In this document: in pieces, positions 12,160 to 64,000 of the stretch
How the letters are laid out: the number at the start of each line of letters is the position of its first letter
Position numbering within the stretch: position 1 is the first letter of the stretch
Source: Mangifera indica
Lineage: Eukaryota; Streptophyta; Magnoliopsida; Sapindales; Anacardiaceae
Assembly (NCBI RefSeq): GCF_011075055.1
Contig: NC_058155.1
Span: 8,279,537 to 8,343,536 of the forward strand
Length of the DNA stretch: 64,000 nt
Reading direction: 5' to 3'
Made by a program: the position numbers and the translations under genes
Notes under the pieces: generated by a model
What the model was told of the DNA's origin: nothing
The model's input: only the letters and a program-made list of their open reading frames with translations
Databases searched by the model: none

Positions 12160-15100
12160 ATGGCTGAACTGGCTACTGCTACTGCTACTGCTGTTGTTTC
12201 CAAAGCAGCAGAGACAGTTACAGAGACAGTGTGCGAATTCGGTTGTCGGCAGATTAACTATGTGTTTAAGTACCGGAGCTACATGAAAAAGCTGAAGGAG
12301 CAAGCTGAGAAGCTCAAAAGTAGAAGAAAAGTTATGGAAGTACAAGTAAAATTAGCTGAAAGACAAGGTGAAGAGATTATTGATGAAGTTACTAAGTGGT
12401 TGAAGAGTGTGGAAGAGTTCATGGAACGGGTAGCAAAGCTCGTTGATGATGAAGATAAAGCAAAGAAGCGCTGTTTCAAAGGGTTGTGTCCTGATTTGAT
12501 TAAACGTTACAGGCTCAGCAAAGAAGCAGAGGAGGTCGAGGAGGCAGGTGCCAATGCCTTGGAAAAAGGAGATTTCAGTAGAATTTCACACCCACCCCTT
12601 CTACGGAGGACGGAATCCATATTCGTCGGTAAGGACTACGAACACTTTGACTCAAGAGAGTCAAATTTCCAGGAAATTATGGATGCATTGAAAGATTCTA
12701 CTGTTAATATGATTGGAGTGCACGGGATGGGTGGTGTGGGTAAAACCACACTGGTCAAAAAAGTTGCTTGGAAGGCCAAGGAAGATAAGTTATTTGATGA
12801 GGTGGTGATTGCTGAGGTAACACAAACTCCGGATCTTAAAAAAATTCAAGCCGACATTGCTGGTCAATTGGGCATGGTATTTAGGGACCAGGAGAGTCCG
12901 TTTGGAAGAGCTGATCAATTACGTCAGCGGTTGAAGAAGTCCAAGAGAATCCTTGTAATAGTAGATAATATCTGGAAGAAGCTTGACCTGAAGGATGTTG
13001 GAATTCCTTTAAGCTATGATAATAAAGGTAGCATGACGGAACACAGGAACGAAAGCAATGATGAGCAAGAGCGGTGCGCAATATTGTTAACAGCTAGAAT
13101 GTTAGCTGTCTTAAATCAAATGAAAACTCAAAAGAATATATCTGTCGAGCCTTTAGCTACTAATGATGCAAGGAGTTTTTTTTGGAAAATCGTTGGTGAT
13201 TTATCAGAGAAATGCAGTATAGCAGCGGAAGTAGTAGAAAAATGTGCGGGGTCACCACTTGCAATTACAACAATTGCAAATGCTTTGAAAGGTAAAGGTG
13301 ATCATGTCTGGAAGGATGCCCTACTTCAGTTAAAAAATTATAATCATAGATGCGTTCCAGAAATGGATAACACTTTACACTCAACTATTGTACTGAGTTA
13401 CAAATTGTTGAACAGTGAAGAAGCCCAATCACTACTTCTACTTTGTGCTCTATTTGATGGTGGACATATCTCTTGGCTCTTGATCCGTGCTATGGGTTTG
13501 GGTTTGTTTGAACATGTTAACTCAATTAATGATGGAAGGAATAGAATAAAGTCGTTGATTGATTATCTCCAAGATTCGTGTTTGTTGTTGAAAGGTATCG
13601 ATAAGGAGACAGTCAAAATGCATGATGTCATTCATACTGTTATTGTATCAATTGCCAGAGAGAAATGTATGTTTGCTATTCGAGATTTCAAGGGCATTAA
13701 AGAGATCTTGATGGAGAGAAGATCTTCGTACAAAGATTCGATTGCAATTTCTGTGTCTTCTGGAGACATTCATGAGCTTCCTGAGAGGCTAGAGTTTCCA
13801 AAACTAAAGTCATTTATTTATAATAATATAAAAGATCTTCGTTCAAAAATTCCAGACCTCTTTTTTGAAGAAGTGAAAGAACTCAAAGTACTAGAATTGA
13901 AAGGAGTTCATTTATTACCACCACCACCATCATTTGTTTGCCTAACAAACCTTAATGCGTTGTGTCTCATGAATTGCTCTTTGGGAGACATAACAATGAT
14001 AGGAGAGCTAAGGAATTTAGTGTTTCTTGGCTTATTATATTGTGATCTTGAGAAGGTGCCTGCAAGTTTTAAACAATTGATGGGACTAAAGGTATTAGTA
14101 TTGAACGATTGTCCAAAGCTTAAAGTAATCCCACCAAATGTCATAGCCAGCTTGTCTCAATTGGAAGAGCTATATATATATAATAGCTTTGATCGATGGG
14201 AAGTTGAAGGACAAAATAACGCTAGTCTTGCAGAGTTGAATGCATTGCCTGAATTGAATACTTTAAGGATACATATCCCGAATGTGCAGATGATACAGCA
14301 AGACTTTATTCCAGTGAAGTTAGAAAAGTATGATGTACATATTGGAGATGTATGGGACTGGTCTTATGCATATGAACCCTCGAGAACATTGAAACTGAAG
14401 TTCAATGGAAGGCCTCATATGAGGCATGGGATCGAAATTTTGATGGAGAAAGCAAAATACCTCTATCTAGATCAGCTGGATGGTGTCAAGGATATGCCTT
14501 GGGAACTTGACAGAGAAGGTTTCCCAGAATTAAAGCATCTCTCGGTACAAAATAGTTCTGAAATTTTGTATGTTGTCAACTCAATGGAGTACACTCATCC
14601 TAGTGATGCCTTTCCAATCTTAGAGTCAATTTTTCTTACTAATCTAAGTGATATGGAGAAGATATGTTGCCGCCTAGATAATGCAAAGTCTTTCAGCCAA
14701 TTAAGAATAATAAAAGTAGCTGATTGTGACAAGTTGAGGTATCTCTTCTCATCCTCGATGGCCAAAAACATACTGCTGCTTGAAGAAATTAATGTAACTA
14801 ATTGCAAGACGCTAAAGGAGATTTTTGGTGAAGAAAGCGAAGACCATGCTGATGAAAACAAAAAGGTTTGTAAGATTGGGTTTAAACAATTGCACTCCGT
14901 AGTACTACAAGGCCTACCGCAGCTCATAAGATTTGGCTTGGAGGTCTGTATCTCTTTGCTTTTTTTTTTTTCTTTTTTCAACTATTTTCTTTTAATATAT
15001 AAGTTGTTTATGAAGGAATAATATTTGTGTCTACAGGTTGCGTTACCAAGATTGGAGAACTTGAAACTGTCCTCAATTAAGATTGAGAACATATGGGTTG

Positions 15101-17386
15101 ATCTACTCCAACCAACGTCTTCCTACATTCAGTGCTTAAAAAGCTTAACAGTGGAAGAGTGTAACGGTTTGAAGTTTCTGTTTTCATCTTCTATGGTCAA
15201 AAGTTTTTTGCAACTCCAAAAGCTTGTGATATGCAACTGCAAGTCAATGGAGGCAGTGATATTTGAGTCAGAAGAATTAGAAGGAGCAGATAAGATAATT
15301 CAAATGAATTTTCCTAAACTATTCTACTTGAAGCTACAAGGGCTTCCAAAACTCACAAGATTTGGTATTGGAAATCTAGTTCAATTCCCTGCCTTGAATG
15401 AACTTCACATTGAGAGTTGCTCTAGTTTAAAGACATTCTTCCCCAATTCTTCTAGTGTAGAAGTGAGCTTGGAGAACATTCTTACTACTAATATAGAGCC
15501 CCTGTTTGATGACAAGGTGAACTAATTTCTTATTGAAATTTTCGTGGCCTGTCAATTTCAAACTTTTAACATTCTTTATAGCTATTAGTGTGACCATTAT
15601 ATGCATTTAATTACCAATAATTGTCTTAAAACTATAATTGTAATTATCATTATCAGTATAATTATTATTAGATTCCTTGCTTTTTTTGTAGGTTGATTTG
15701 TCAGGCTTGGAGAAGCTGATACTCTTACACTTGGATAACTTGCAGCTGATCTGGCACAATCAACTCCGTGGAGATTCCTTTTGCAAATTAAAAGAAGTGA
15801 GAGTTGAATTCTGTGAAAATTTGGTGACTATTGTTCCATCTAATAGTACTCAAGGATTTCTTACCTTTCAGAATCTAGAAATATTAACTGTTGGTAACTG
15901 TTGGAATATAAAAAGTCTCTTTCCAGTTTCCATAGCTATTGGTCTTTTGCAACTCAAAACACTTGAGCTAATCTCCTGTGGTCTGGAGATAATTGTTGGT
16001 GAGCAGGAAGTAGATGGGACTCCAGAATTTTTGTTTCCTCAATTAACGAGGCTCTATCTTGACAATTTACCAGAGCTCAAACATTTCTACATGGGGTCCT
16101 ATACAGCAGAGTGGCCAATGCTTAAGGAATTGCTTGTGTACAAATGTGGGAAGATAAAAGTATATGCTTTAGATGGAGAGAGCCAACTTGCCCCATTTTC
16201 GTTTGAAAAGGTATGACTTCTTCGATTGACACAAAAAACTGCAGCATAGTCATTACGTTTAATTTGTTTAAGTTTTTTATTTCTCTTTAAATCAGTCCGA
16301 TGGAAATTTGTCATGTCTCAATGAAAAATAATTTTTGTTAATTAATAACGGAGTTGTAATTTGTCATATTTACAGTCAGATTGCAAAATTACATTTATTA
16401 AAAGGCATATATATAATTAATTGGAAAAAGATAAATGGTTAAAAGTGTCACCTTTCTTCTTTAAAAGTAGATAGGATATTATGCCCTATATTTTTAAATT
16501 TCATAGCATTTCAAATTGTTAATTTCAACCGCTTATGATTTCATATAAAGTAACTAATGAAACAGACTACTGCTTGTTGGTCACTTGTATTTACTTGTTC
16601 ATCCATTTTCAGGTCGTACCCAATTTGGAAAACTTGGGTTTAAATGCCGATAGCATAACATCTTCATGTCTTGACCATATTCCCGCTAGGAGGTTTGGGA
16701 AACTTAAATTTCTTAGACTGGAAAGCTTTGATGATTATTCGGTTGGATTTCAGTTTAATCTCCTTAAAAAATTGCAAAATTTGGAATCACTCATTCTATT
16801 TGATTGTACATTCCAAGAACTACTCCCATATGAAGGATGTACAAGGAAAGAAAATTCTCAGATGAAAACGTTTCTCCAAAATCTTGAAGCTTTGATTATA
16901 GACAGATGTCATTGTTTAACATCTTTGATGTCATCCTCATACATTTACTTCAAAAACATAAAGCATTTGGAAGTCAACCGTTGTAATGGATTGGCAAATA
17001 TACTAGCATGCTCAGCAGCAAAAACTCTTGCCCAAATCACAACAATCAGAATCAGAGAATGTGAGTTGGTAACAGAGGTGATAGCAACTGAGTCTGAGAT
17101 AGAGACAATAGAAGAGGAGATTGTTTTCAACCAATTGGAAATGTTGGAGCTTCATTGTTTAAATAGTCTCACATGCTTTTGCTCTGCCAATTACGCTTTT
17201 CGATTCCCATGCTTAGAACAAGTGATTGTGAGTCAATGTCCCAATTTGAAGATTTTTTCTAATGGAGGTTTAAGCACACCAAAATTGGAGAAGGTACAAC
17301 TAACAGAGATTATTGATGCAAAATATATTTGGAAGGGTGACCTTAATTCCATTATCCAACACATGTGCGGGATTTGTATGTCTTAA
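12160..17386 (+). CDS. NLR-1: CC-NB-ARC-LRR disease-resistance protein (At4g27220/RPS2-RPS5-like), intact, 4 exons
   Basis: An intracellular immune receptor whose NB-ARC domain switches between ADP and ATP states when pathogen effectors are sensed. Exons, all phase 0: 12160-14943, 15037-15516, 15692-16210 and 16613-17386 (1518 aa). Introns of 93, 175 and 402 bp have GT-AG ends, although intron 1 has GTCTGT where NLR-2 has GTATGT. Residues 1-150 form the coiled-coil N-terminus. The P-loop GMGGVGKTT is at 189-197, kinase-2 VDNIW at 268-272, RNBS-B ILLTAR at 308-313 and MHD at 487-489. The GLPL motif reads GSPL (364-367), whereas NLR-2 has GLPL. A charged stretch (about 291-305) lengthens the kinase-2 to RNBS-B loop. 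From about 530 on, leucine-rich repeats carry many LxxLxVxxC units. The frame is uninterrupted, so it is probably functional. The exon structure is inferred from homology with NLR-2 and frame continuity, not transcripts. Confidence 0.9.
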
Positions 17387-19425: not shown

Positions 19426-21500
19426 GTGTTCTGCTCACTTGATTTCAGCTATCACTTGGGATAATGAATTTAAGAAAATAACACAATGTTGAGTCCCTTT
19501 CTATAATTTGGACGTTACATTATTAATGGTAAATCAGTAATTTACATTCAATTACTAAATTAAATAGTTGAAATTAATACTTTTAACTAAATTAATTAAT
19601 GATGGTATTTTTAGTTATTACACTAAGAAAGGGTAAATCAGTCATTTAAACCCTAGCTAACAATAATAGCTCAGGGTGGATATTTGGGTCAAAATTTAGC
19701 ATGTAAAACTTTGTCAATATATAAAAAGTAAAATATTATCATAAAAATAGGTTATTTAAAATATTATTGAATATAAATTATTATTATATTTGATATAAAT
19801 AATTATTGTGTTTTGTTTGACTTAATAAAAAATACAAAATTATTATTTTTCTTAAATATTTTTGAGTATAATTATTCAAAAATATTTTTCATAGTTATTG
19901 TTATATTAAGTGAGAATTAAAGTACTTTTATCCTAAAAATTAATAAATTTGGATAAAATTATAATAAAATAAGATTATTCATTATAGTAACCCTCACATT
20001 ATTTTTATTATCTAATAAATCAACAAAAGTAATATCAATAATAAAAGATAGAATATTAAAAAAAATTTTGAGTACTTGAACCAAACGTCTCTAAAAAGTT
20101 CATAAAAAAGGGTTTAACAAAATACCTATAATATTTGAAGAAATGATCTTGAAAGAAGTGGAAATCCAAGAAATTGTAAAGGAAAGTGTGTGGCATAATT
20201 AGAAAAGATAACATATATTGGAAAAGAAAAATGTTCTAGTTTTCTTTTTCAATTCGAAGAAACACACTTCAAAATTTTATATATTTTTGAAAACAAGCCC
20301 AACATGTTTTGTACAAGTGTTGGTGCGTTTCGTTTCTGAAATCTTTCAAAAACCTGAAAACCATCTTCTACTAATGTTTTCGTGCTTTTTAGTTGATAAC
20401 AATCTTAAATACTCAAAATTTTTATTTTGGTGTTGGAGTATAAGAGCTTGTCATGAGGAATATTAATTAAATGTGTTTCAACAACCCTTGGATTATTTAA
20501 CTTAGGTTAATTGATTTAAGGTAAAAACCAAAACTAAAATTTGAGTACTAAATGATTTCAATTCATTTACGATATGTTGTTCACCTAAAGTTTTTATTCT
20601 ATTTCATTTTGTAAAAATTTGTAATACTTATTCACATTATTTTTATTTTCCAATACAATTAAAACAACCAAAAATCTCATAAAAAACTAAGATATTAAAA
20701 ACATAAAATATAAAAAATATATGTCAATATTTTTACAACCGGATCGGGTATGGCTTTGGTGAAGAAGACAATCTGGTCTAATCTATGATTGGATCAGTTA
20801 ATCGGTGATTAGATTGGTTAACTATTTAAAAATAATATTAAAAAATTATATAACTTATAATTAATTATATAATTTAATTTATTTAACATTAAAATATGTT
20901 TAGTTTGATCATACATATATTCAAATATGATAAATAAAGTTTTGGTTCAAATTTTTATAATGAATTTTTGAAAAAGATAATTAATTTTTAATATTGACTG
21001 AATCAAACCTTATTTTATATATGCTCTAATCAATTAACAATTAACACTTCAATTGATTAGATCGATTAATCTAATCTAATTTTTAAAACTATGAAATTTA
21101 TATATTATGATTGTCATTATTTTCAAATAATAATAAACACATTTTTTACTGTTATTATTTTCAAATATTGTTTTTCGAAAACGGAAAACATTAAACATAA
21201 ATTTTATCTTTGAGCCCCTTTGAGCTGCAAGAAAAGAATAAACAAATATTATCTTTTGAGTTATGCTTTTCTTCAGAAATATAATTTTTCTCCGGATCAA
21301 AACGGATTCTGATACATTCGGTTCGGATCCATCATAATTCACGGGTGGGTATAACTTTACGGGCGACCAACAGACCAGAGTTCAAAATAAGGAAAAATAA
21401 ATCTATCCTGCCAACGCTCGTCTTCTCACTATAACTCCCATCCCTTCCCAACAGATTCGAATAAAAGCCACCATTAACTATCAGGTGTTCCCTTTCTTAA
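19426..21500. other. AT-rich intergenic region, duplicated at 45.1-47.2 kb
   Basis: No gene seen. The open frames (for example 82 codons at 20218) are low-complexity. The whole stretch aligns by landmarks to 45111-47230. The last 150 bases (CGGATCCATCATAATTCACGG onward) are probably the former promoter of the TLC-like fragment. Confidence 0.6.
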
Positions 21501-30059: not shown

Positions 30060-30542
30060 GGGTGCGTTTGGTTAAAGGTTTTTAAGATTACCTTGGTAAT
30101 CTATCTTTTATTCCCTTGTTTGGTTTGTCAGTAATAAAATATTACAGTAATCTTCTATTACCAATACTGACGTGACAGGTAATATATGTGGTAATCTGAT
30201 TATCACCTTTACCTTAGGTATTTAAAGATTACTGGGATAATCTTGAGTTTATTATAGAAAAATTATTATTTATTAATTTTTTTGAGATAAAAATAAATTT
30301 ATTTTTAATTAATATGACAAATAATATAAAAAATATTTCAAAATAATTATATTTAAAGGGATTTAAATAAAATATTTTACTAGTAATCTTTTATTACTTT
30401 TAACCAAACACAATAATTATTTATATCTATCAAATTTTATCAAACATAGTAATCATTTATATTCAGTAATCTTCTAAGTAATCTATCTTCAAGGTAATCT
30501 TTCTATTTTAATAATCAAACATTACCCAAACCAAACGCCCCC
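30060..30542. mobile_element. 483 bp MITE with GGGNGCGTTTGGTT terminal inverted repeats
   Basis: The left end GGGTGCGTTTGGTTAAAGG and the inverted right end GGGGGCGTTTGGTTTGGG match over about 14 bases. Both are flanked by GAA, a possible 3-bp duplication. Internally, copies of GGTAATCT and AGATTACC in both orientations extend the symmetry. The terminus and 3-bp duplication suggest the PIF/Harbinger group, but GAA departs from the usual TWA target, so the superfamily is uncertain. Confidence 0.7.
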
Positions 30543-32268: not shown

Positions 32269-35200
32269 ATGGCTGAACTGGCTACTGCTGCTGCTTTGGA
32301 AACAGCAGCAGAGAGAGTTACAGAGACAGTGTGTGAATTTGGTTGTCGGCAGATTAACTATATGTTTAAGTACCGGAGCTACATGAAGAAGCTGAAGGAG
32401 CAAGTTAAGGAGCTTGAAATTAGAAGAGAAGATGTGAAAGAAGATGTAGAAATGGCTAAAAGACAAGGTGAACAGATTTATAATGAAGTTACCGAGTGGC
32501 TGAAGAGTGTGGAAGAGTTCATGGAACGGGTAGCAAAGCTCGTTGATGATGAAGATAAAGCAAAGAAGCGCTGTTTCAAAGGGTTTTGTCCTGATTTGAT
32601 TAAACGTTACAGGCTCAGCAAAGAAGCAGAGGAGGTCGCGGAGGCAGGTGCCAGGGTCTTGGAAAAAGTAAAATTCAGTAGAATTTCGCACCCACCCCTT
32701 CTACGGAGGACGGAATCCATATTCGTCGGTAAGGAGTACGAACACTTTGACTCAAGAGAGTCAAATTTCCAGGAAATTATGGATGCATTGAAAGATTCTA
32801 CTGTTAATATGATTGGAGTGCACGGGATGGGTGGTGTGGGTAAAACCACACTGGTCAAAAAAGTTGCTTGGAAGGCTAAGGAAGATAAGTTATTTGATGA
32901 GGTGGTGATTACTGAGGTAACACAAACTCCCGATCTTAAAAAAATTCAAGCCGACATTGCTGGTCAATTGGGCATGATATTTAGGGACCAGGACAGTCCA
33001 TTTGGAAGAGCTGATCAATTACGTCAGGGGTTGAAGAAGTCCAAGAGAATCCTTGTAATAGTAGATAATATCTGGAAGAAGCTTGACCTGATGGATGTTG
33101 GAATTCCTTTAAGCTATGATAATAAAGGTAGCATGACGGAACACAGGAAAGAAAGCAATGATGAGCAAGAGCGGTGCGCAATATTGTTAACAGCTAGAAC
33201 GTTAGCTGTCTTAAATCAAATGAAAACTCAAAAGAATATATCGGTTGAGCCTTTAGCTACTAATGATGCAAGGAGTTTGTTTGGGAAAATTGTTGGTGAT
33301 TTATCAGAAAAACACAGTATAGCAGCGGAAATAGTAGAAAAATGTGCAGGGTTACCACTTGCGATTACAACAATTGCAAATGCTTTGAAAGGAAAAAGTG
33401 ATTATGTCTGGAAGGATGCCCTGCATCAGTTAAAAAGTTGTAATCATAGATGCGTTCCAGAAATGGATAACACTTTATACTCAACTATTGAATTGAGTTA
33501 CAAATTGTTGAACAGTGAAGAAGCCAAACGGATACTTCTACTTTGTGCTCTATATAATGATACCCATGTCGCTCACTTCTTGTTAAGAGGTATGGGGTTG
33601 GGTTTGTTTGAAAATGTTTACTCAGTTAATGATGGAAGGAATAGAATAAAGTCATTGATTGATTATCTCCGAGATTCGTGTTTGTTGTTGAAAGGTAACG
33701 ATAATGAGATGGTCAAAATGCATGATGTCGTTCATACTGTTGTTGTATCAATTGCCAAAGAGAAATATATGTTTGATATTCGAGATGTCGAGGGCATTAA
33801 AGAGGTGTTGATGAACAGAATGTACAAAGATTCGATTGCAATTTCTCTGTCTAATAGAGACATTCATGAGCTTCCTGAAAGGGTAGAGTGTCCAAAACTT
33901 AAGTTATTTACTTACCATATTAAAAAAGATCTTGTTTACGAATCCTAGACCACTTTTTCGAAGGAATGAAAGAACTCAAAGTACTAGAATTGGGAGGAGT
34001 TCATTTATTACTGCCACCACCATCATTTGTTTGCCTAACAAACCTTAAAAGATTGTGCCTAGAGAGTTGCTCTTTAGGAGATATAACAATGTTGGGCGAG
34101 CTAAGGAAATTAGAGACTCTTGAATTTCTAAGTTGTGATTTTGAACAGTTGCCAGAAAGATTTAAACAACTGACGGGACTTAAGTTATTACAATTGTGCA
34201 ATTGTCCAAAGCTTAAAGTAATCTCACCAAATGTCATAGCCAGCTTGTATCGATTAGAAGAGCTATATATAATTAATAGCTTTGATCGATGGGAAGTTGA
34301 AGGACAAAATAATGCCAGTCTTGCAGAGTTGAAGGAATTGCCTCAATTGAACACTTTATGCATACATATTCCGACTGTGCAGATGATACAACAAGACTTT
34401 ATTCCAGTGAACTTAGAAAAGTATAAAGTACATATTGGAGATGTATGGGACTGGTCTTATGAATATGAAACCTCGAGAACTTTGAGGCTAAAGTTCAATG
34501 GAAGCAGTCATATGAGGTATGGGATCGAAATTTTGATGGAGAAAGCAAAATATCTCTATCTAGATCAGCTGGATGGTGTTAAGGATATACTTTGGGAACT
34601 TGACAGAGAAGGTTTCCCAGAATTAAAGCATCTCTCTGTACGAAATGGTTCTGAAATTTTGTATATTGTCAACTCGATGGAGTGCATTCATTCTGATGAT
34701 GCCTTTCCAATCTTAGAATCAATGTTTCTTATTAATCTAGGTCATATGGAGAAGATATGTTGCGGCCTAGGTAGTGAAAAATCTTTCAGCCAATTAAGAA
34801 TATTAAAAGTAGCTGATTGTGACAATTTGAGGTATCTCTTCTCATCCTCCATGGCCAAAAACATACTGCTGCTTGAAGAAATCGATGTAACTAATTGCAA
34901 GATGCTAAAGGAGATTTTTGGTGAAGACAGTGAACACCATGCTGATGAAAACAAAAAGGTTTGTAAGATTGAGTTTAAACAATTGCACTCAGTGGTACTA
35001 CAAGGCCTACCGCAGCTCATAAGATTTGGCTTGGAGGTATGTATCTCTTTGCTTTTTTTTTTTTTTTCCATTTATTTTCTTTTAATATATAAGTTGTTTA
35101 TGGAGGAATAATATTTGTGTCTACAGGTTGTGTTACCAAGATTGGAGAACTTGAAACTGTCCTCCATTAAGATTGAGAACATATGGGTTAATCTACTCCA

Positions 35201-35987
35201 AGCAACGTCTTCCTATATTCAGTGCTTAAAAAGCTTAACAGTGGAAGAGTGTAACGGTTTGAAGTTTCTGTTTTCATCTTCTATGGTCAAAAGTTTTGTG
35301 CAACTCCAAAGGCTTGTGATATGCAACTGCAAGTCAATGGAAGCAGTGATATTTGAGTCAGGAGAATTAGAAGGAGCAGATAAGATGATTCAATTGAATT
35401 TTCCTAAACTATTCTACTTGAAGCTACAAGGGCTTCCAAAACTCACAAGATTTGGCATTGAAAATCTAGTTCAATTCCCTACCTTGACTGAACTTCACAT
35501 GGAGGGTTGCTCTAGTTTAAAGGCATTCTTCCCCAATTCTTCTAGTGTAGAAGTAAGCTTGGAGAACATTCTTACTACTAATATAGAGCCCCTATTTGAT
35601 GACAAGGTGAATTAATTTCCTATTGAAATTTTCGTGGCCTTTCAATGTCAAACTTTTAACATTCTTTATAGCTATTATTGTGACCATTATATGCATTTAA
35701 TTACCATTACTTGTCTTAAAACTATAATTATAATTATCATTATCAATATAATTATTATTAGATTCGTTGCCCTTTTTGTAGGCTGATTTGCCAGGCTTGG
35801 AGAAGCTGATACTCTTACACATGGATAACTTACAGTTGATCTGGCACAATCAACTCCGTGGAGACTCCTTTTGCAAATTAAAAGAAGTGAGAGTTGAACT
35901 CTGTAAAAATTTGGTGACTATTGTTCCATCTAGTAGTACTCAAGGACTTCTTACCTTTCAGAATCTAGAAACCTTAACTGTTGAAAA

Positions 35988-38476
35988 CTGTTGGAATATA
36001 AAAAGTGTGTTTCCAGTTTCCATAGCTACTAGTCTTTTGCAACTCAAACAACTCACGCTATGCTTTTGCGGTTTGGAGGAAATTGTTGGCAAACAGGAAG
36101 TAGATGGGACTCCAAGATTTTTGTTTCCTCAATTAACGCGGCTTAAACTTTCTGGGTTACCAGAGCTCAAATATTTTTACATGGGGTCCTATACAGCAGA
36201 GTGGCCAATGCTTAAGGAATTGCTTGTGTACGGTTGTAAGAAGATAAATGTATATGCTTTAGAGGGAAAGAACCAACCTGCCCTATTTTGGTTTGAAAAG
36301 GTACGACTTATCCTGTTGTCCCTAAAAACTGTAACGTAGTCATTTAAGTTTAATTTGTTTAAGTGTTTTCTTTCCTCTTTAAATCAGTTCAGTGGAAATT
36401 TGTCATGTTTGATTGAAAAATAATTTATCTTTGTTAATTATTAATAGAGTGGCAATTTGTCATGTTTACAGTCAAACTGCAAATTATATTTGTTTAAAAC
36501 ATATATATAATTAATTGAAAATGGATAAATGGGCAGAAGTGTCACCTTTCCTCTTTAAAAGTAGATAGGATCTTTTGCCTCATATTTTTTCATTTCTTAG
36601 CTTTTCAAATTGTTAATTTCATATGCATATGATTTCATTTAAAGTAACTAATGAAACAGACTGCTGCTTGTTGGTCACTTGTATTTACTTGTTCATCCAT
36701 TTTCAGGTCGTACCCAATTTGGAAATATTGGGTTTAAATGCCGATAACGAAACATCCTCATGTCTTGACCGTATTCCAGCTAGGAGCTTTGGGAAACTTA
36801 AATCTCTTGGGCTGCAAAGCTTGGATGATTATTCAGGAGGATTTCAGTTTAGTCTACTTCAAAAATTGCACAATTTGGAAACACTCTGTCTATATGACTG
36901 TACATTCCAAGAACTACCCCCATATGCAGGATGTACAAGGCAACAAAATTCTCAGAAAAAAACGTTTCTCCAAAATCTTCGAACTTTGATAGTACACGAA
37001 TGTCATTGTTTAACATCTTTGATGTCATCCTCATACATTTGCTTCAAAAACATAAAGCATTTGGAAGTTGAACGTTGTAACGGATTGACAAATATACTAG
37101 CATGCTCAGTAGCGAGAACTCTTGTCCAAATCACAACCGTCAAAATCAAAGAATGTGAGTTGGTAACAGAGGTTATAGCAACTGAGTCTGGGATAGAGAC
37201 AACAAAAGAGGAGATTGTTTTCAATCAACTGGAAACGTTGGTGCTTCATTGTTTGAAAAGCCTCACATCCTTTTGCTCTGCCAATTACGTTTTTCGATTC
37301 CCATGCTTAGAACAAGTGATTGTGAGTCAATGCCCCAATATGAAGACTTTTTCTCAAGGAGGTTTAAGCACACCAAAATTAAAGAAGGTGCAACTAACAG
37401 AGACAATCAATGCAGAACCTTTTTGGAAAGATGACCTTAATTCCACTATCCAACACATGTTTACAAATATGGTATTTATTCACAAATTCTTTTTACAGTT
37501 GTTCGAAATCTCAGGAACCTTAATATTAATTCATATCTTTAAGCTTAAAATATTTTTTTTCTTTTACACTTATGGTATCTTTTAGCACATGCTAACTCAT
37601 TATTTTGTGTTTGGTAGCTGGGTTTCAGCAATGTAGAGAATCTAAAACTCTCTGAATTCCCCAAATTAGAAGAAAACATTTGGAAATCTAAAGTTTCGGA
37701 CGGCTTATTCTATAACTTAAAGTCACTGGTATTGGACGCATTTTTGGAATCATCAAGTGCAATTCCATCTTGTGTGTTAAGCGGCTTAAAAAATCTTGAA
37801 ATACTTGAAGTAAGAAGTCATGATTCGTTGACACGGCTGTTTGATACAGAAAGCTCGCTAAATGTTGATGGACATGGTTCAAAGAGAAGTCATCGAGATG
37901 TTTTAAACTTGAAGAATTTGAAGTCTCTTAAAGTGCACAATTGTAATGGATTGAGATATATATTTACACTGTCCGTCATCCTAGGCCTTGTTCAACTCCA
38001 AGATATAGAAGTTAAAAATTGTGCTTTGATGGAAGAAATCATCAGGAAAGAAGGAGAAAATGATGCAGAGATTGATAAAATTTTTATCCCACAACTCAAC
38101 TCCATTAGTCTTGAGTCATTGCCGAACTTGACAAGATTCTGTTCAGGAATTAATAGTTTGGCTTGTCCATCCTTGAAACGTATTAGAGTAGCCGGATGTC
38201 CAGAGATTGAGACATTCGTTTTTGCTGATATGAAGCACCAATCAGACCATATTGCACCTCTCTTCTGCGAAAAGGTTTGATTAATTGAAACTCGTTCCCA
38301 GAATAACTTTTTTCGCATTTTATTATCCATTGTAATTATTATATTATTTCTGTTATCTACGCTAATTAGAAATTCACTTGTTATGTATGCATAGTTGAAA
38401 GTGATATGTTTTTTATTCTAATTTATGTTAATTTGCAGGTTGCTTTTCCAAGGTTGGAGGAGATTCTGCTTGATAA
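35988..38476 (+). repeat. LRR module 1 of NLR-2 (2489 bp)
   Basis: Runs from the CTGTTGGAATATAAAAAGTG site in exon 3 through exons 4 and 5 to the same site in exon 6. The repeat boundary falls inside an exon, so exon 6 is a hybrid: its start (VAFPRLEEILLDN) is new, and its remainder copies the end of exon 3. Confidence 0.9.
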
Positions 38477-40964
38477 CTGTTGGAATATAAAAAGTGTGTT
38501 TCCAGTTTCCATAGCTACTAGTCTTTTGCAACTCAAACAACTCACGCTATGCTTTTGCGGTTTGGAGGAAATTGTTGGCAAGCAGGAAGTAGATGGGACT
38601 CCAAGATTTTTGTTTCCTCAATTAACGCGGCTTAAACTTTCTGGGTTACCAGAGCTCAAATATTTTTACATGGGGTCCTATACAGCAGAGTGGCCAATGC
38701 TTAAGGAATGGATTGTGTACGATTGTAAGAAGATAAATGTATATGCTTTAGAGGGAAAGAACCAACCTGCCCTATTTTGGTTTGAAAAGGTACGACTTAT
38801 CCTGTTGTCCCTAAAAACTGTAACGTAGTCATTTAAGTTTAATTTGTTTAAGTGTTTTCTTTCCTCTTTAAATCAGTCCAGTGGAAATTTGTCATATTTG
38901 ATTGAAAAATAATTTATCTTTGTTAATTATTAATAGAGTGGCAATTTGTCATGTTTACAGTCAAACTGCAAATTATATTTGTTTAAAACATATATATAAT
39001 TAATTGAAAAAAGATAAATGGGTAGAAGTGTCACCTTTCCTCTTTAAAAGTAGATAGGATCTTTTGCCTCATATTTTTTCATTTCTTAGCTTTTCAAATT
39101 GTTAATTTCATACGCATATGATTTCATTTAAAGTAACTAATGAAACAGACTGCTGCTTGTTGGTCACTTGTATTTACTTGTTCATCCATTTTCAGGTCGT
39201 ACCCAATTTGGAAATATTGGGTTTACATGCCGATAACGAAACATCCTCATGTCTTGACCGTATTCCAGCTAGGAGCTTTGGGAAACTTAAATCTCTTGGG
39301 CTGCAAAGCTTGGATGATTATTCAGGAGGATTTCAGTTTAGTCTACTTCAAAAATTGCACAATTTGGAAACGCTCTATCTATATGATTGTACATTCCAAG
39401 AACTACCCCCATATGAAGGATGTACAAGGAAACAAAATTCTCAGATGAAAACATTTCTCCAAAACCTTCGAAGTTTATGGATAGACAAATGTCATCGTTT
39501 AACATCTTTGATGTCATCCTCATACATTTGCTTCAAAAACATAAAGCATTTGGAAGTTGAACGTTGTAACGGATTGGCAAATATATTAGCATGTTCAGTA
39601 GCGAGAACTCTTGTCCAAATCACAACAGTCAAAATCAGAGAATGTGAGTTGGTAACAGAGGTTATAGCAACTGAGTCTGGGATAGAGACAACAAAAGAGG
39701 AGATTGTTTTCAACCAACTGGAAACGTTGGTGCTTCATTGTTTGAAAAGCCTTACATCCTTTTGCTCTGCCAATTACGTTTTTCGATTCTCATGCTTAGA
39801 ACAAGTGATTGTGAGTCAATGCCCCAATATGAAGACTTTTTCTCAAGGAGGTTTAAGCACACCAAAATTAAAGAAGGTGCAACTAACAGAGACAATCAAT
39901 GCAGAACCTTTTTGGAAAGATGACCTTAATTCCACTATCCAACATATGTTTACAAATATGGTATTTATTCACAAATTCTTTTCACAGTTGTTCGAAATCT
40001 CAGGAACCTTAATAGTAATTCATATCTTTAAGCTTAAAATTTTCTTTTTCTTTTACACTTTGGTATCTTTTAGCACATGCTAACTCATTATTTTGTGTTT
40101 GGTAGCTCGGTTTCAGCAATGTAGAGAATCTAAAACTCTCTGATTTCCCCGAATTAGAAGAAAACATTTGGAAATCTAAAGTTCGGGACGGCTTATTCTA
40201 TAACTTAAAGTCACTGGTATTGGACGCATTTTTGGAATCATCAAGTGCAATTCCATCTCGTGTGTTAAGCGGCTTAAAAAATCTTGAAATACTTGAAGTA
40301 AGAAGTCATGATTCGTTGACACGGCTGTTTGATACAGAAAGCCCGCTAAATGTTGATGGACATGGTTCAAAGAGAAGTCATCGAGATGTTTTAAACTTGA
40401 AGAATTTGAAGTCTCTTAAAGTGCACGATTGTAATGGATTGAGATATATATTTACACTGTCCGTCATCCTAGGCCTTGTTCAACTCCTAGATATAGAAGT
40501 TAAAAATTGTGCTTTGATGGAAGAAATCATCAGGAAAGAAGGAGAAAATGATGCAGAGATTGATAAAAGTTTTATCCCACAACTCAACTCCATTAGTCTT
40601 GAGTCATTGCCGAACTTGACAAGATTCTGTTCAGGAATTATTAGTTTGGCTTGTCCATCCTTGAAAAGTATTAGAGTAGCCAGATGTCCAGAGATTGAGA
40701 CATTCGTTTTTGCTGATATGAAGCACCAATCAGACCATATTGCACCTCTCTTCTGCGAAAAGGTTTGATTAATTGAAACTTGTTCCCAGAATAACTTTTT
40801 TCGCATTTTATTATCCATTGTAATTATTATATTATTTCTGTTATCTACACTAATTAGAAATTCACTTGTTATGTATGCATAGTTGAAAGTGATATGTTTT
40901 TTATTCTAATTTATGTTAATTTGTAGGTTGCTTTTCCAAGGTTGGAGGAGATTCTGCTTGATAA
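38477..40964 (+). repeat. LRR module 2 of NLR-2 (2488 bp)
   Basis: Near-identical to module 1, introns included. In the 182-residue stretch shared by exons 5 and 8 I count 8 amino-acid differences. Introns 4/7, 5/8 and 6/9 differ in length by at most 1 bp from their counterparts. Confidence 0.9.
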
Positions 40965-42457
40965 CTGTCGGAATATAAAAAGTGTGTTTCCAGTTTCCAT
41001 AGCTACTGGTCTTTTGCAACTCAAACAACTCACGCTACGCTATTGCGGTTTGGAGGAAATTGTTGGCAAGCAGGAAGTAGATAGGACTCCAAGATTTTTG
41101 TTTCCTCAATTAACGCGGCTTAAACTTTCTGGGTTACCAGAGCTCAAATATTTTTACATGGGGTCCTATACAGCAGAGTGGCCAATGCTTAAGGAATTGT
41201 TTGTGTACGGTTGTAAGAAGATAAAAGTATATGCTTTAGGGGGAGAGAGCCAACCTGCCCTATTTTGGTTTGAAAAGGTACGACTTATCCCGTTGCCCCT
41301 AAAAACTGTAACGTGGTCATTTAAGTTTGATTTGTTTAAGTGTTTTCTTTCCTCTTTAAATCAGTCCAGTGGAAATTTGTTATGTTTGATTGAAAATTAA
41401 TTTATCTTTGTTAATTATTAATAGAGTGGCAATTTGTCATGTTTACGGTCAAATTGTAAATTATATTTATTTAAAACATATATATAGTTAATTGAAAAAA
41501 AATAAATGGGTAGAAGTATCACATTTCCTCTTCAAAAGTAGATAGGATCTTTTGCCTCGTATTTTTTCATTTCATAGTTTTTCACATTGTTAATTTCATA
41601 CGCTTTTGATTTCATTTAAAGTAACTAATGAAACAGACTACTGCTTGTTGGTTACTTTTATTTACTTGTTCATCCATTTTCAGGTCGTACCCAATTTGGA
41701 AAAATTGGGTTTAAATGCCGATAACGAAACATCCTCATGTCTTGACCGTATTCTAGCGAGGAGCTTTGGGAAACTTAAATTTCTTGGACTGCAAAGCTTG
41801 GATGATTATTCAGTAGGATTTCAGTTTGGTCTCCTTCAAAAATTGCACAATTTGGAAACACTCTATCTATATGATTGTGCATTCCAAGAACTACTCCCAT
41901 ATGAAGGATGTACAAGGAAACAAAATTCTCAGATGAAAACATTTCTCCAAAATCTTCAAAGTTTGTGGATAGATAGATGTCATCGTTTAACATCTTTGAT
42001 GTCATCCTCATACATTTGCTTCAAAAACATAAAGCATTTGAAAGTTGTACGTTGTAACGGATTGACAAATATACTAGCATGCTCAGTAGCGAGAACTCTT
42101 GTCCAAATTACAACCGTCAAAATTAGAGAATGTGAGTTGGTAACAGAGGTTATAACAACTGAGTCTGGGATAGAGACAACAAAAGAGGAGATTGTTTTCA
42201 ACCAATTGGAAAAGTTAGAGCTTCATTGTTTGAAAAGCCTCACATCCTTTTGCTCTGCGAATTATGCTTTTCGATTCCCATGCTTAGAACAAGTGATTGT
42301 GAGTCAATGCCCCAATTTGAAGATTTTTTCTCATGGAGGTTTAAGCACACCAAACCTAAAGAAGGTACAACTAACAGAGATTATTGATGCAGAATATATC
42401 TGGAAGGGTGACCTTAATTCCACCATCCAACAAATGTGTAGGATTTGTAGGTCTTAA
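40965..42457 (+). repeat. LRR module 3 of NLR-2 (partial, terminal)
   Basis: Repeats the first part of the module (rest of exon 9, intron, exon 10) but ends with the terminal exon type (CRICRS stop) seen in NLR-1 (CGICMS stop), instead of the TNM splice-donor form of exons 4 and 7. Confidence 0.85.
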
Positions 42458-43666: not shown

Positions 43667-44082
43667 TGTCAAAAATATAAATTAGGTTTACAAGTGTGAA
43701 GATTGAAACTCATATTACACAAAACCAATTGGCTTGTGTTAAGGTCAATCCACACACTTATATACCACTTTCTTATGTTCTATTTATTAGATGTGAGACT
43801 CTCTCTCTTTATTCTTTATTTGAGTCTTCGACACCCTCATTGAATACATTGTCACTTGTATCCAAGAAACACTTAGACTGTTAATCCCCCCGTTTGACTC
43901 GTACTCTGATACCGTATCAGAAATATAAATTAAGTTTACAAGTGTGAAGATTGAAACTCATATTACACAAAATCAATTGGCTTGTGTTAAAGTCTAATCT
44001 ACACACTTATATACTACTTTCTTATGTTCTATTTATTAGATGTGAGACTATTTTTCTTTATTCTTTATTTGAGTCTCCAACA
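43667..44082 (-). mobile_element. 416 bp TRIM (miniature LTR retrotransposon)
   Basis: Two direct repeats of about 167 bp (43667-43833 and 43915-44082) flank an 81 bp interior. On the minus strand the primer-binding site GGTATCAGAG (43904-43913) follows the 5' LTR, as in tRNA-Met-primed elements. The 5-bp duplication AAAAT lies at 43662-43666 and 44083-44087. The matching site behind NLR-1 (about 18770) is empty, so the insertion postdates the duplication. No coding capacity. Confidence 0.85.
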
Positions 44083-45110: not shown

Positions 45111-47241
45111 TCTGCTCACTTGATTTGAAAAATCACTTGGGATAATGAATTTAAGAAAATAACAGAATGCTGAGTCCCTTTATATAATTTGGACATTACA
45201 TTATTAAGGGTAAATCAGTAATTTAAATTCAGTTACTAAATTAAATAGTTGAAATCAATACTTTTAACTAAATTAATTGATAAGGGTATTTTATTTAATA
45301 CCAAAAAGGATAAATCAGTTATTTAAACTCTAAACTAATAGTAAGTAGATATTTGGGTCAAAATTTAGCAAGTGGAATTTTGTTAATACATCAAATAAAA
45401 CTAAATTACTTAAAATATTATTGAGTATAAATTATTACTATATTTGATAAAAATATATGTAAAAAATTATTGTGTTTTGTTTGACTTAATAAAATAATAC
45501 TAAATTATTTTTTACTTAAATATCTTTAAGTATGATTATTCTAAAATATTCTTCATGTTTATTGTTATATTAAGTGAAAATTAAAGTATTTTTATTCTAA
45601 AAATTAATAAATTCGGATAGAATTATAATAAAATAAGATTAACCTAGTAATTTTTTAATACCATATAAAGATGGTAATCAAATGATTCCTGATATTAACC
45701 GTCACATCATTTTTATTATTTAGTAAATCAAACAAAAGTAATATCAATAATAAAAAAATAAAGTATTAAAGAAATTTTTGAGTACTTGAATCAAACGTTA
45801 CTAAAAAAATTGGTAAAAAGCAGTTTAACAAGATACTTGTGAAATTCAAAGAAAATATCTTGAAAGAAGTGGTAATCCAAGAAATTGTAAAAGAAAATGT
45901 GTGGCATAATTAGAAAAAATAACATATATTGGAGAAGAAAAATACTCTAGTTTTCTTTTTTAATTTGAAGAAACGTGTTTCTCAAACAAAAACACACTTC
46001 AAAATTTTACATATTTTTTAGAAACATTGCCAACATGTATTGATTGTACAAGTGTTGGAGTGTTTCCATATCTGAAATCTTTCAAAAACCTGGAAGCCAT
46101 CCCCTACTAATGATTTCATGCTTCTTAGTTGACAACAATCTTAAGCACTCAAAATTTCTATTTTGGAGTTGGAGTACAAGACTTTGTTAACGAGGAATAT
46201 TAATTGAATGTTTTTCAATAACCCCTGGATAATTTACCACAACCCTAGGTTAATTGGTTTCAAATAAAAACCAAAACTAAAATTTGAATATTAAATGATT
46301 TCAATTCCTTCGCGATTTGTTGATCACCCAAAGTTTTTATTCTATTTCATCCTGTAAAAATATGTAATACTTATTCACATTATTTTTATTTTTTAATACA
46401 ATTAAAACAGCCAAAAATCTCATAACTAAGTTATTAAAAACATAAAATATAAAAAAAATTTATAAATGTTTTTAGACCCAGATCAAATATTGATCCAATG
46501 AAAAAGATAGTCCGGTTCAATCCATGATTGGATCAATTAATCAATGATTAGATCGGTTAACTATTTAAAAATAATATTAAAAAAATTTTGTACAATTTAT
46601 AACTAATTATATAATTTGATTTACTTAACGTTAAATAAGTTTAGTTTGATGGTGTATATATTCAAATATAATAAATAAAAATTTTGGTTCAAGTTTTTGT
46701 AATGAATTCTTAAAAAAGAAATTCAATTTTTAATATTGACCGAGTCACACTTAATTTGATATATTTTTCAATCAGTTTGAATAGTAATTAACAATTTAAC
46801 TGATTGGATCGATTGATCCAATCCAATTTTTTAAAACTATAAAATTTATATATTATGATTGTCTATTATACCACAATATTTTATATTTATTATAAAAAAT
46901 AATATTAAACGCATGTTTACTGTTATTATTTTCAAATACTGTTTTTCGAAAACGGAAAACATAAAACATAAATTTTATCTCTGAGCCTCTTTTCGCTGCA
47001 AAAAAAGAATAAACAAATATTATCTTTTGAGTTATGCTTTTCTTAAGAAATATAATTTTGATCGGGATCAAAACGGATACTCATGCATTCGGGTCGGATC
47101 CATCATAATTCACGGGTGGGTATAACTTTACGGGTGACTAACAGACCAAAGGTCGAAATCAGAAAAAAAAAATCCATCTGCCAACGCTAGTCTTCTCACC
47201 ATAACTACCACCCCATCCCAACAGATTCGAATAAAAGCCAC
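45111..47241. repeat. Duplicated intergenic region (copy of 19.43-21.47 kb)
   Basis: No gene. Ends at GATTCGAATAAAAGCCAC, where the copy behind NLR-1 continues into the TLC-like fragment but this copy jumps straight into CAO exon 8. Confidence 0.65.
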
Positions 47242-63070: not shown

Positions 63071-64000
63071 ATGGCCGAACTGGCTACTGCTGCTGCTTCC
63101 AAAGCTGCGGAGAGAGTCACAGAGACAGTGTGTGAATTCGGTTGTCGGCATATTAACTATGTGTTTAAGTACCGGAGCTACATGAAGAAGCTGAAGGAGC
63201 AAGTTAAGGAGCTTGAAATTAGAAGAGAAGATGTGAAAGAAGATGTAGAAATGGCTGAAAGGCAAGGTGAACAGATTTATAATGAAGTTACCGAGTGGCT
63301 GAAGAGTGTGGAAGAGTTCATGGAACGGGTAGCAAAGCTCGTTGATGATGAAGATAAAGCAAAGAAGCGCTGTTTCAAAGGGTTGTGTCCTGATTTGATT
63401 AAACGTTTCAGGCTCAGCAAAGAAGCAGGGGAGGTCGCGGAGGCAGGTGCCAAGGTCTTGGAAAAAGGAAACTTCAATAGAATTTCACACCCACCCCTTC
63501 TGCGGAGGACGGAATCCATATTCGTCGGTATGGAGTACGAACACTTTGACTCAAGAGAGTCAAACTTCCAGGATCTTATGGATGCATTGAAAGATTCTAC
63601 TGTTAATATGATTGGCGTGCAAGGGATGGGTGGTGTGGGTAAAACCACACTGGTGAAAAAAGTTGCTTGGAAGGCCAAGGAAGATAAGTTATTTGATGAG
63701 GTGGTGATTGCTGAGGTAACACAAACTCCAGATCTTAAACAAATTCAAGCCGAGATTGCTGGTCAATTGGGCATGGTATTTAAGGACCAGGAAACGCTAT
63801 CTTTAAGAGCTGATAAATTACGCCACAGGTTAAAGATTTCCAAGAGAATCCTTGTAATAGTAGATAATATCTGGAAGAAGCTTGACCTGAAGGAAGTTGG
63901 AATTCCTTTAAGCTATGATAATAAAGGTAGCATGATGGAACACAGGAAAGAAAGCAATGATGAGCAAGAGCGGTGCGCAATATTGTTAACAGCTAGAACG
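63071..64000 (+). CDS. NLR-3: CC-NB-ARC protein, 5' part, runs off the window
   Basis: The third CNL paralogue, open for 310 codons to the window edge. It opens MAELATAAASKAAERV and has the same coiled-coil start as NLR-1 and NLR-2. The P-loop GMGGVGKTT is at residues 185-193, followed by VDNIW and ILLTAR. Between residues about 195 and 275 it differs most from the other two (for example KDQETLSLRADKL), so it is not just a recent copy. Its initiation codon, leader and missing intron in this part agree with NLR-1. The remaining ARC and LRR parts, and whether it is intact, cannot be judged here. Confidence 0.9.
   Translation, partial: MAELATAAASKAAERVTETVCEFGCRHINYVFKYRSYMKKLKEQVKELEIRREDVKEDVEMAERQGEQIYNEVTEWLKSVEEFMERVAKLVDDEDKAKKRCFKGLCPDLIKRFRLSKEAGEVAEAGAKVLEKGNFNRISHPPLLRRTESIFVGMEYEHFDSRESNFQDLMDALKDSTVNMIGVQGMGGVGKTTLVKKVAWKAKEDKLFDEVVIAEVTQTPDLKQIQAEIAGQLGMVFKDQETLSLRADKLRHRLKISKRILVIVDNIWKKLDLKEVGIPLSYDNKGSMMEHRKESNDEQERCAILLTART

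Follow-up and report, generated by a model that had tools for sequence, protein, structure and literature searches.

The window that we analysed is a 64,000-nucleotide (nt) stretch of the mango (Mangifera indica) genome, positions 8279537-8343536 of the 13,093,066-bp contig C19 in a 391-Mb assembly, and our subject is NLR-2, a gene of the nucleotide-binding leucine-rich repeat (NLR) cluster found there. NLR-2 is an NB-ARC-LRR (leucine-rich repeat) receptor gene of the At4g27190/At4g27220-like (LRR_RPS2) type, in which a module of LRR exons and introns is tandemly repeated. All features below lie on the forward strand and are given in window coordinates. Exon 1 (32269-35036) encodes the N-terminus, the NB-ARC domain (PF00931, E 1.8e-35) and the first LRRs, and its frame is broken at codon 560. 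In this profile search at E 0.001, which did not include a coil predictor, nothing matched an N-terminal coiled coil. Nine exons follow, namely the LRR exon E2 (35127-35606), E3 (35782-36300), E4 (36707-37471), E5 (37618-38274), E6 (38439-38789), E7 (39196-39960), E8 (40106-40762), E9 (40927-41277) and the terminal E10 with the stop codon (41684-42457). Each has GT...AG flanks and a length that is a multiple of 3, and none contains an internal stop, so all are in phase 0, and their translations are present exactly (9/9) in the NCBI model LOC123202894 (P0001, an uncharacterized mango protein). PF23247 was found in each of the eight scanned LRR segments (E 2.5e-11 to 3.3e-29), E7 and E8 being outside the scan.

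The 20-base site CTGTTGGAATATAAAAAGTG occurs exactly at 35988 and 38477, and a third site at 40965 differs by one mismatch as judged by eye, giving spacings of 2489 and then 2488 bp. This is the direct repeat reported by an earlier model-made note on the same letters (hereafter the sequence-only reading), and the self-comparison which that note proposed recovered it as two module copies, c1 (35978-38465) and c2 (38466-40953), and a partial copy c3 (40954-42437). E4 and E5 belong to c1, E7 and E8 are the E4 and E5 of c2, E9 repeats the shortened E6 exon, as the junction search below also found, and E10 lies in c3 and is by exon class a terminal E4-like exon (E4t). At the module offset, self-BLAST gave 96.25 % identity over 3974 bp, and the first copy is 93.2 % identical to the partial third; between c1 and c2 identity is 97.2-98.5 % in five segments and 96.3 % in E4. 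These identities are far above chance, and NLR-2 contains near-identical in-frame repeat units. A multi-exon module has been duplicated inside the gene with a boundary inside an exon, as the sequence-only reading had it. Position 35978 was considered as the duplication breakpoint as such and rejected, being the start of the alignment between the shortened E6 and the full E3.

The copies had been described as almost unchanged and fresh. The duplication is indeed recent, but not brand new: c1 and c2 differ at 6/406, 4/145 and 3/164 positions of introns 3, 4 and 5 (13/715 noncoding positions in total), and c1 and c3 at 29/406 positions of intron 3. Of the 27 sites at which c2 and c3 agree against c1, 15 lie in 36888-37007, where they form a patch that resembles gene conversion and covers one LRR. 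Tandem repeats are difficult to assemble, and we had one assembly only, so that the modules might have arisen as an assembly duplication or a mix of haplotypes. As c1 and c2 are not identical (1.5-3.7 % different in six compared segments), they are unlikely to be one sequence trivially assembled twice, and E5 is doubled in two further genes of this genome as well (L026 and L031), each time with sequences of its own. We regard an assembly origin as very improbable.

Two other genes of the cluster served for comparison. NLR-1 (12160-17386) has exons at 12160-14943, 15037-15516, 15692-16210 and 16613-17386, and its spliced product is identical to the mango protein P0007 (100 % over 1518 amino acids, aa). 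Its single terminal exon, which the sequence-only reading had noticed, stands where NLR-2 has E4-E10, and E5 has no counterpart in it. NLR-3 (63071-64000, cut by the window end) is the start of P0002 at locus L029, 100 % identical in every exon piece, and has one E5 and a full-length E6. With the exon classes of P0002 mapped onto its relatives, the order E2-E3-E4-E5-E6-E4t was found in P0002, P0003, P0006 and P0009. We scored 40 of 235 candidate loci in the assembly, so that copy counts are lower bounds, and dropped L025, L030 and L035 as partial or fragmentary before counting; architecture was called from the best BLAST classes, with mixed or partial exons in several genes. The 14 genes whose architecture could be read are homologues with different unit numbers: four have no E5 (NLR-1, L027, L028 and L034), seven have one (L021-L024, L029, L032 and L033) and three have two (NLR-2, L026 and L031). 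Exon lengths give 1612 aa after E2 in NLR-2, 430 in NLR-1 and 1077 in NLR-3. The comparison that the sequence-only reading made with NLR-1 overstates the gain, since NLR-1 looks contracted (see below) and a one-E5 gene already has 1077 aa. The longest relatives with repeated block classes are P0122 of mango, with 4,009 aa, and P0128 of soybean, with 4,223 aa. P0122 and P0123 (mango LOC123210160) are annotated isoforms of a longer module array that differ by 446 aa, which hints at alternative splicing at the level of modules or at uncertainty of annotation.

The sequence-only reading had called 38439-38789 a hybrid exon created at the module boundary. Its coordinates are exact but its nature differs: it runs from an E6 start into an E6-type end and lacks two LRRs in between. 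E6 and E9 have 117 codons each, compared with 173 in the E6 of P0002, P0003 and P0006. LRRs of E3 start at residues 6 and 62, i.e. 56 residues apart, which makes the missing 56 codons the length of two LRRs and leaves the join in register. In the junction DNA, inspected by eye, the left flank corresponds to the starts of the paralogues' E6 and the right flank to their third LRR, with about 5-6 bases matching neither. A 26-mer across the junction, searched in the whole 391-Mb assembly with up to 3 mismatches, was found at two sites (C19:8317990 and 8320478), both in NLR-2, with no control matches; its 21-mer core matched in 3 of 35 fetched loci, all overlapping NLR-2. A predicted structure of this exon from a four-row alignment had a mean pLDDT (predicted local distance difference test score) of 62.4 in the best of five models and 26-32 in the others, and was not used as evidence.

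Exons that are hybrid in the sense of the one-E5 architecture lie elsewhere, at E3, E4 and E7. In one-E5 genes the homologous half-module stands at a first position (E3-intron-E4) and again at a second (E6-intron-E4t), and 90 DNA positions tell the two apart, L021, L022 and L029 all having one base at the first and a different one at the second. Scored at these sites, c1 of NLR-2 is a mosaic. Up to 35967 it has the first-position base at 11/11 sites, with one undecided site at 35985; of the 62 sites in 35998-37318, 55 are second-position, 4 first-position and 3 other; from 37333 onwards the first-position base returns at 16/16 sites. E3 accordingly consists of a first-position start and an E6-type end, which opens c1, with the switch between 35967 and 35998, and E4 of an E4t-type 5′ part and an E4-type 3′ end, with the switch between 37318 and 37333. 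The right-hand switch is the same in c2 (16/16). Sliding identity against NLR-3 and L021 agrees with this mosaic, and intron 3 of c1 has 406 nt, the length of the second-position intron of NLR-3, the first-position intron having 318 nt.

The genes without E5 are mosaics as well. L027 and L034 are first-position at 11/11 sites up to 35967 and then second-position at 71/78 and 73/78 sites; L028 is first-position at 9/10 sites up to 35868 and then second-position at 71/80, a switch just left of that in NLR-2. NLR-1 is first-position at 44/49 sites up to 36871 and second-position at 35/39 from 36933, so that its last exon passes from mostly E4-type to mostly E4t-type states. From this pattern, the no-E5 genes look like products of contraction with at least two different exchange zones. 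We rejected NLR-1 as the ancestral state: the one-E5 form is commoner, and the NLR-1 mosaic makes the gene look like a contracted recombinant.

Trees of separate segments gave NLR-2 different relatives. In the E1-E2 tree of 14 genes it is the sister of the no-E5 gene L028 (100/100). The tree of the 3′ end and flank, with 11 genes, places it with L028, L034 and NLR-1 (100/100), apart from the one-E5 genes L021, L022, L023 and L029. The inserted part, from the end of E4 through E5 to the start of E6, groups with L021, L022 and L029 (92/93, below the starred level of the tool). A single clade unites the half-modules of c1, c2 and c3 (100/100), within which c1 and c2 are nearest to each other (100/99). 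A long branch carries the two shortened exons in the protein tree of E3 and E6, where only their wider clade is meaningful. Mosaic and trees together place recombination breakpoints within homologous units, and the story of a simple array grown within one gene was rejected, as the segments of NLR-2 have different nearest relatives. The paired E5-bearing segments are nearest to each other within NLR-2 (100/99), L026 (100/100) and L031 (100/100), and the E5 copies likewise within the Pistacia protein P0011 (100/99); either the duplication occurred independently in each gene or gene conversion keeps the copies alike.

Differences between c1 and c2 were compared with predicted surface exposure. 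Among 575 positions, 95 are predicted to be exposed in the LxxLxLxx motif, and these hold 14 of the 28 residue differences (odds ratio 5.75, P printed as 0.0000); with the conversion patch removed they hold 9 of 18 differences (odds ratio 5.62, P 0.0008). The other pairs gave odds ratios of 3.35 (c1-c3, P 0.0010) and 2.76 (c2-c3, P 0.0115). Exposed positions have a pN of 0.068 and a pS of 0.063, and positions elsewhere 0.014 and 0.033. Per-exon dN/dS values are too noisy to read except in E4 (c1-c2 0.35, P 0.009); E5 shows 12 nonsynonymous and 1 synonymous difference (P 0.32). The concentration of c1-c2 differences at exposed LRR positions suggests that selection acted on the protein after the duplication, and hence that the array was probably being translated over much of the period since. 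The new recognition surface proposed by the sequence-only reading is plausible in this light, indirectly supported by the location of these differences and not shown.

The modules lie downstream of a frame break that the sequence-only reading overlooked. From the ATG at 32269 the frame stays open only as far as codon 560 (about 33.95 kb), while LRR coding resumes in another frame from about 33924, which places the break at about 33.93-33.95 kb, upstream of every module. The claim that each extra module keeps the reading frame is valid across E2-E10 but not for the gene as a whole; as assembled, NLR-2 has no single open frame through NB-ARC and LRR, and we do not claim a functional receptor. 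With P0001 mapped to the window, LOC123202894 has a predicted intron of 266 nt (33883-34148) that spans and bypasses the break, whereby the model loses about 89 codons of the early LRR. The first exon of L034 has the same GT as the donor of this intron, yet it is open. An automatic gene model may in this way conceal a frame break behind a predicted intron.

Apart from a genuine intron there, the break might be a base-level assembly error in an otherwise intact NLR-2. It adjoins a short homopolymer run that is present in 6/8 aligned relatives, and the remainder of the gene is open; NCBI's model, on the other hand, retained the sequence and predicted the intron there. We treat such an error as a real possibility that is somewhat short of an even chance. 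In another explanation the break is real and the array is now a relic in a dead gene. In favour of this stands the in-frame stop at codon 560, the first exon being open in 8/9 genes checked, with NLR-2 the broken one (L023, L026, L031, L032 and L033 were left out of this check). Private codon changes in exon 1 of NLR-2 (nonsynonymous:synonymous) are 5:2 before the break and 6:2 after it; the latter is more skewed than in L028 (1:3), L034 (3:5), L027 (2:6) and NLR-3 (3:6) but like L021 (19:7) and L022 (5:2), so that loss of constraint is neither proven nor excluded. Against a pseudogene stand the nine downstream exons without a stop or a length change other than a multiple of 3, the small number of private changes in exon 1 (7 before the break and 8 after) and the way in which c1-c2 changes track predicted LRR exposure, although a recent break would fit all three. 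We consider a dead gene rather unlikely. Each of these two explanations of the break is compatible with either of the histories below. A stop check of the later exons at 10 loci (L032, L033 and the terminal exon of L031 left out) found one stop, in the E3 span of L022 (L022 4156-4665), so NLR-2 is not the sole gene of the cluster with a broken exon.

We find it moderately likely that NLR-2 is a contracted gene that regained its middle piece from a one-E5 paralogue and then duplicated it, and that LRR cassette number in these genes changes by exchange between homologous exons. The starting point would have been a backbone already contracted to E1-E2-E3/E6 hybrid-E4t, the form seen in the sister gene L028. 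Close to the 3′ end of E4t, an exchange that was either non-reciprocal or unequal would have imported the segment from the end of E4 to the start of E6, whose far end would have rejoined the homologous exon in register but two LRRs downstream. The recipient's half-module would thereby flank the new segment on both sides, and unequal crossing-over between the half-modules could have created the second full module. The product, if translated, would have an estimated 2.2 times the LRR length of NLR-1, counted from about residue 560, and an altered lateral surface. The order of events that we infer is opposite to that of the sequence-only reading: NLR-1 probably contracted and NLR-2 re-expanded.

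A different history would do without any loss of the module. NLR-2 would have copied its own E6-intron-E4t tract over E3-intron-E4, E6 would separately have lost 168 nt, and duplication would have followed. The half-modules of c1 and c3 do share a within-gene clade, conversion-like patches such as the one described above exist, and the no-E5 genes are not one group in the E1-E2 tree. Such a history needs the left edge of the converted tract to coincide with the edges in L027 and L034, and nearly with that in L028, requires an extra deletion and leaves the affinity of both ends of NLR-2 to L028 unexplained. We judge it distinctly unlikely.

Several points weigh against contraction and regrowth. 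The E1-E2 tree pairs L034 with the two-E5 gene L026 and puts L027 with NLR-1 and the one-E5 genes L029 and L033, and the 3′ tree, which was built without L024, L026 and L031, pairs L027 with the one-E5 gene L032; L026 was also outside the half-module tree. With the no-E5 genes scattered in this way, a single contraction is not proven, and the shared left edge could come from a recombination hotspot or from conversion. For the inserted piece, the trees point to a putative donor group of paralogues and not to a single gene. The exposure motif list was hand-picked after an automatic motif search (odds ratio 5.29), with the first two E3b residues dropped, and whole-module dN/dS between c1 and c2 is 0.63, indistinguishable from neutral (P 0.15). 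Finally, the frame break upstream of the array would, as assembled, block its translation from the main start codon.

Contraction and regrowth in NLR-2 may be one instance of a wider behaviour, on which our judgement is evenly balanced: the locus could work as an accordion, in which NLRs of the cluster lose and rebuild the sensing arm again and again by swapping one multi-exon cassette at two exon pairs, E3/E6 and E4/E4t, NLR-2 being seen after such a collapse, a regrowth that drew on another paralogue, and one more duplication. As every cassette boundary is in phase 0, recombination, and perhaps splicing, could change cassette number freely. If this is right, the cluster offers a natural series of receptor genes with 0, 1 and 2 copies of one recognition cassette and with the exchange sites recorded, in which the effect of LRR cassette number on detection by the receptor can be tested directly.

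Other repeats and mobile sequences were seen in the window. Just downstream of NLR-2, 43669-44082 is a tandem duplication with a spacing of 248-249 bp and 92-95 % identity. An inverted pair (30197-30485 and 45402-45680, 76 % identical), with a related piece at 19792-19948, flanks NLR-2 and perhaps represents small transposon copies. A hAT-type transposase occupies 109-2216 in two overlapping open reading frames (ORFs) in different frames, one (109-1659) with a BED zinc finger and an RNase-H-like part and the other (1635-2216) with the hAT dimerisation domain.

Among the papers listed from the open-licence literature, none is titled on the NLR-2 locus. The main text of the mango pan-genome paper on coiled-coil NLRs (PMC10642748) mentions neither the LOC number nor the word "intragenic"; "unequal" and "tandem" were not found in the Anacardiaceae gene-expansion paper (PMC12307512), nor any match for LRR-duplication terms in the lettuce NLR paper (PMC4683639). 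Change in the copy number of LRR units inside plant NLRs is already established from melon Vat, Prunus Ma and flax M, and NLR-2 is a well-resolved further case. Flax M, unlike NLR-2, is a TIR-type NLR (TNL) whose repeat lies inside coding sequence, with no exon cassette. Like NLR-2, it shows unequal exchange between repeat units of one NLR altering LRR length, and resistance was lost together with an LRR-coding repeat unit, according to three papers that cite the work (PMC8012345, PMC4945094, PMC12405883).

The excerpts of the melon Vat paper (PMC8012345) describe near-perfect LRR-region repeats (R65aa), whose number ranges from one to seven per gene and for which the authors propose unequal crossover or conversion. 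The likeness to NLR-2 extends to the setting in an NLR cluster, with repeats that vary in number and copies with premature stops alongside; the Vat unit is 65 aa, with its repeats in exon 2, whereas the 2.49-kb cassette of NLR-2 comprises two whole exons, parts of a third and three introns. The Prunus Ma/RMja TNL, in the portions of the two papers that deal with it (PMC6141779, PMC4851768), has five duplicated post-LRR exons in a region whose function those papers give as unknown. It shares with NLR-2 the duplication and loss of whole exons inside an NLR, a huge C-terminal region and a woody perennial host, and differs in being a TNL with a post-LRR domain and a single-exon unit. In brown-algal ROCO genes, same-phase LRR exons are duplicated and shuffled into a putative recognition array according to the excerpted text (PMC11378527), which describes an unrelated GTPase family with one 72-bp exon per LRR, in phase 2, and with alternative splicing reported, unlike NLR-2. 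The soybean Rpp4 candidate R10 (P0135) and the related 4.2-kaa protein P0128 are LRR_RPS2-type proteins like NLR-2, in which alternating E4-like and E5-like blocks are repeated; compared as proteins only, they show about 22-44 % identity per block.

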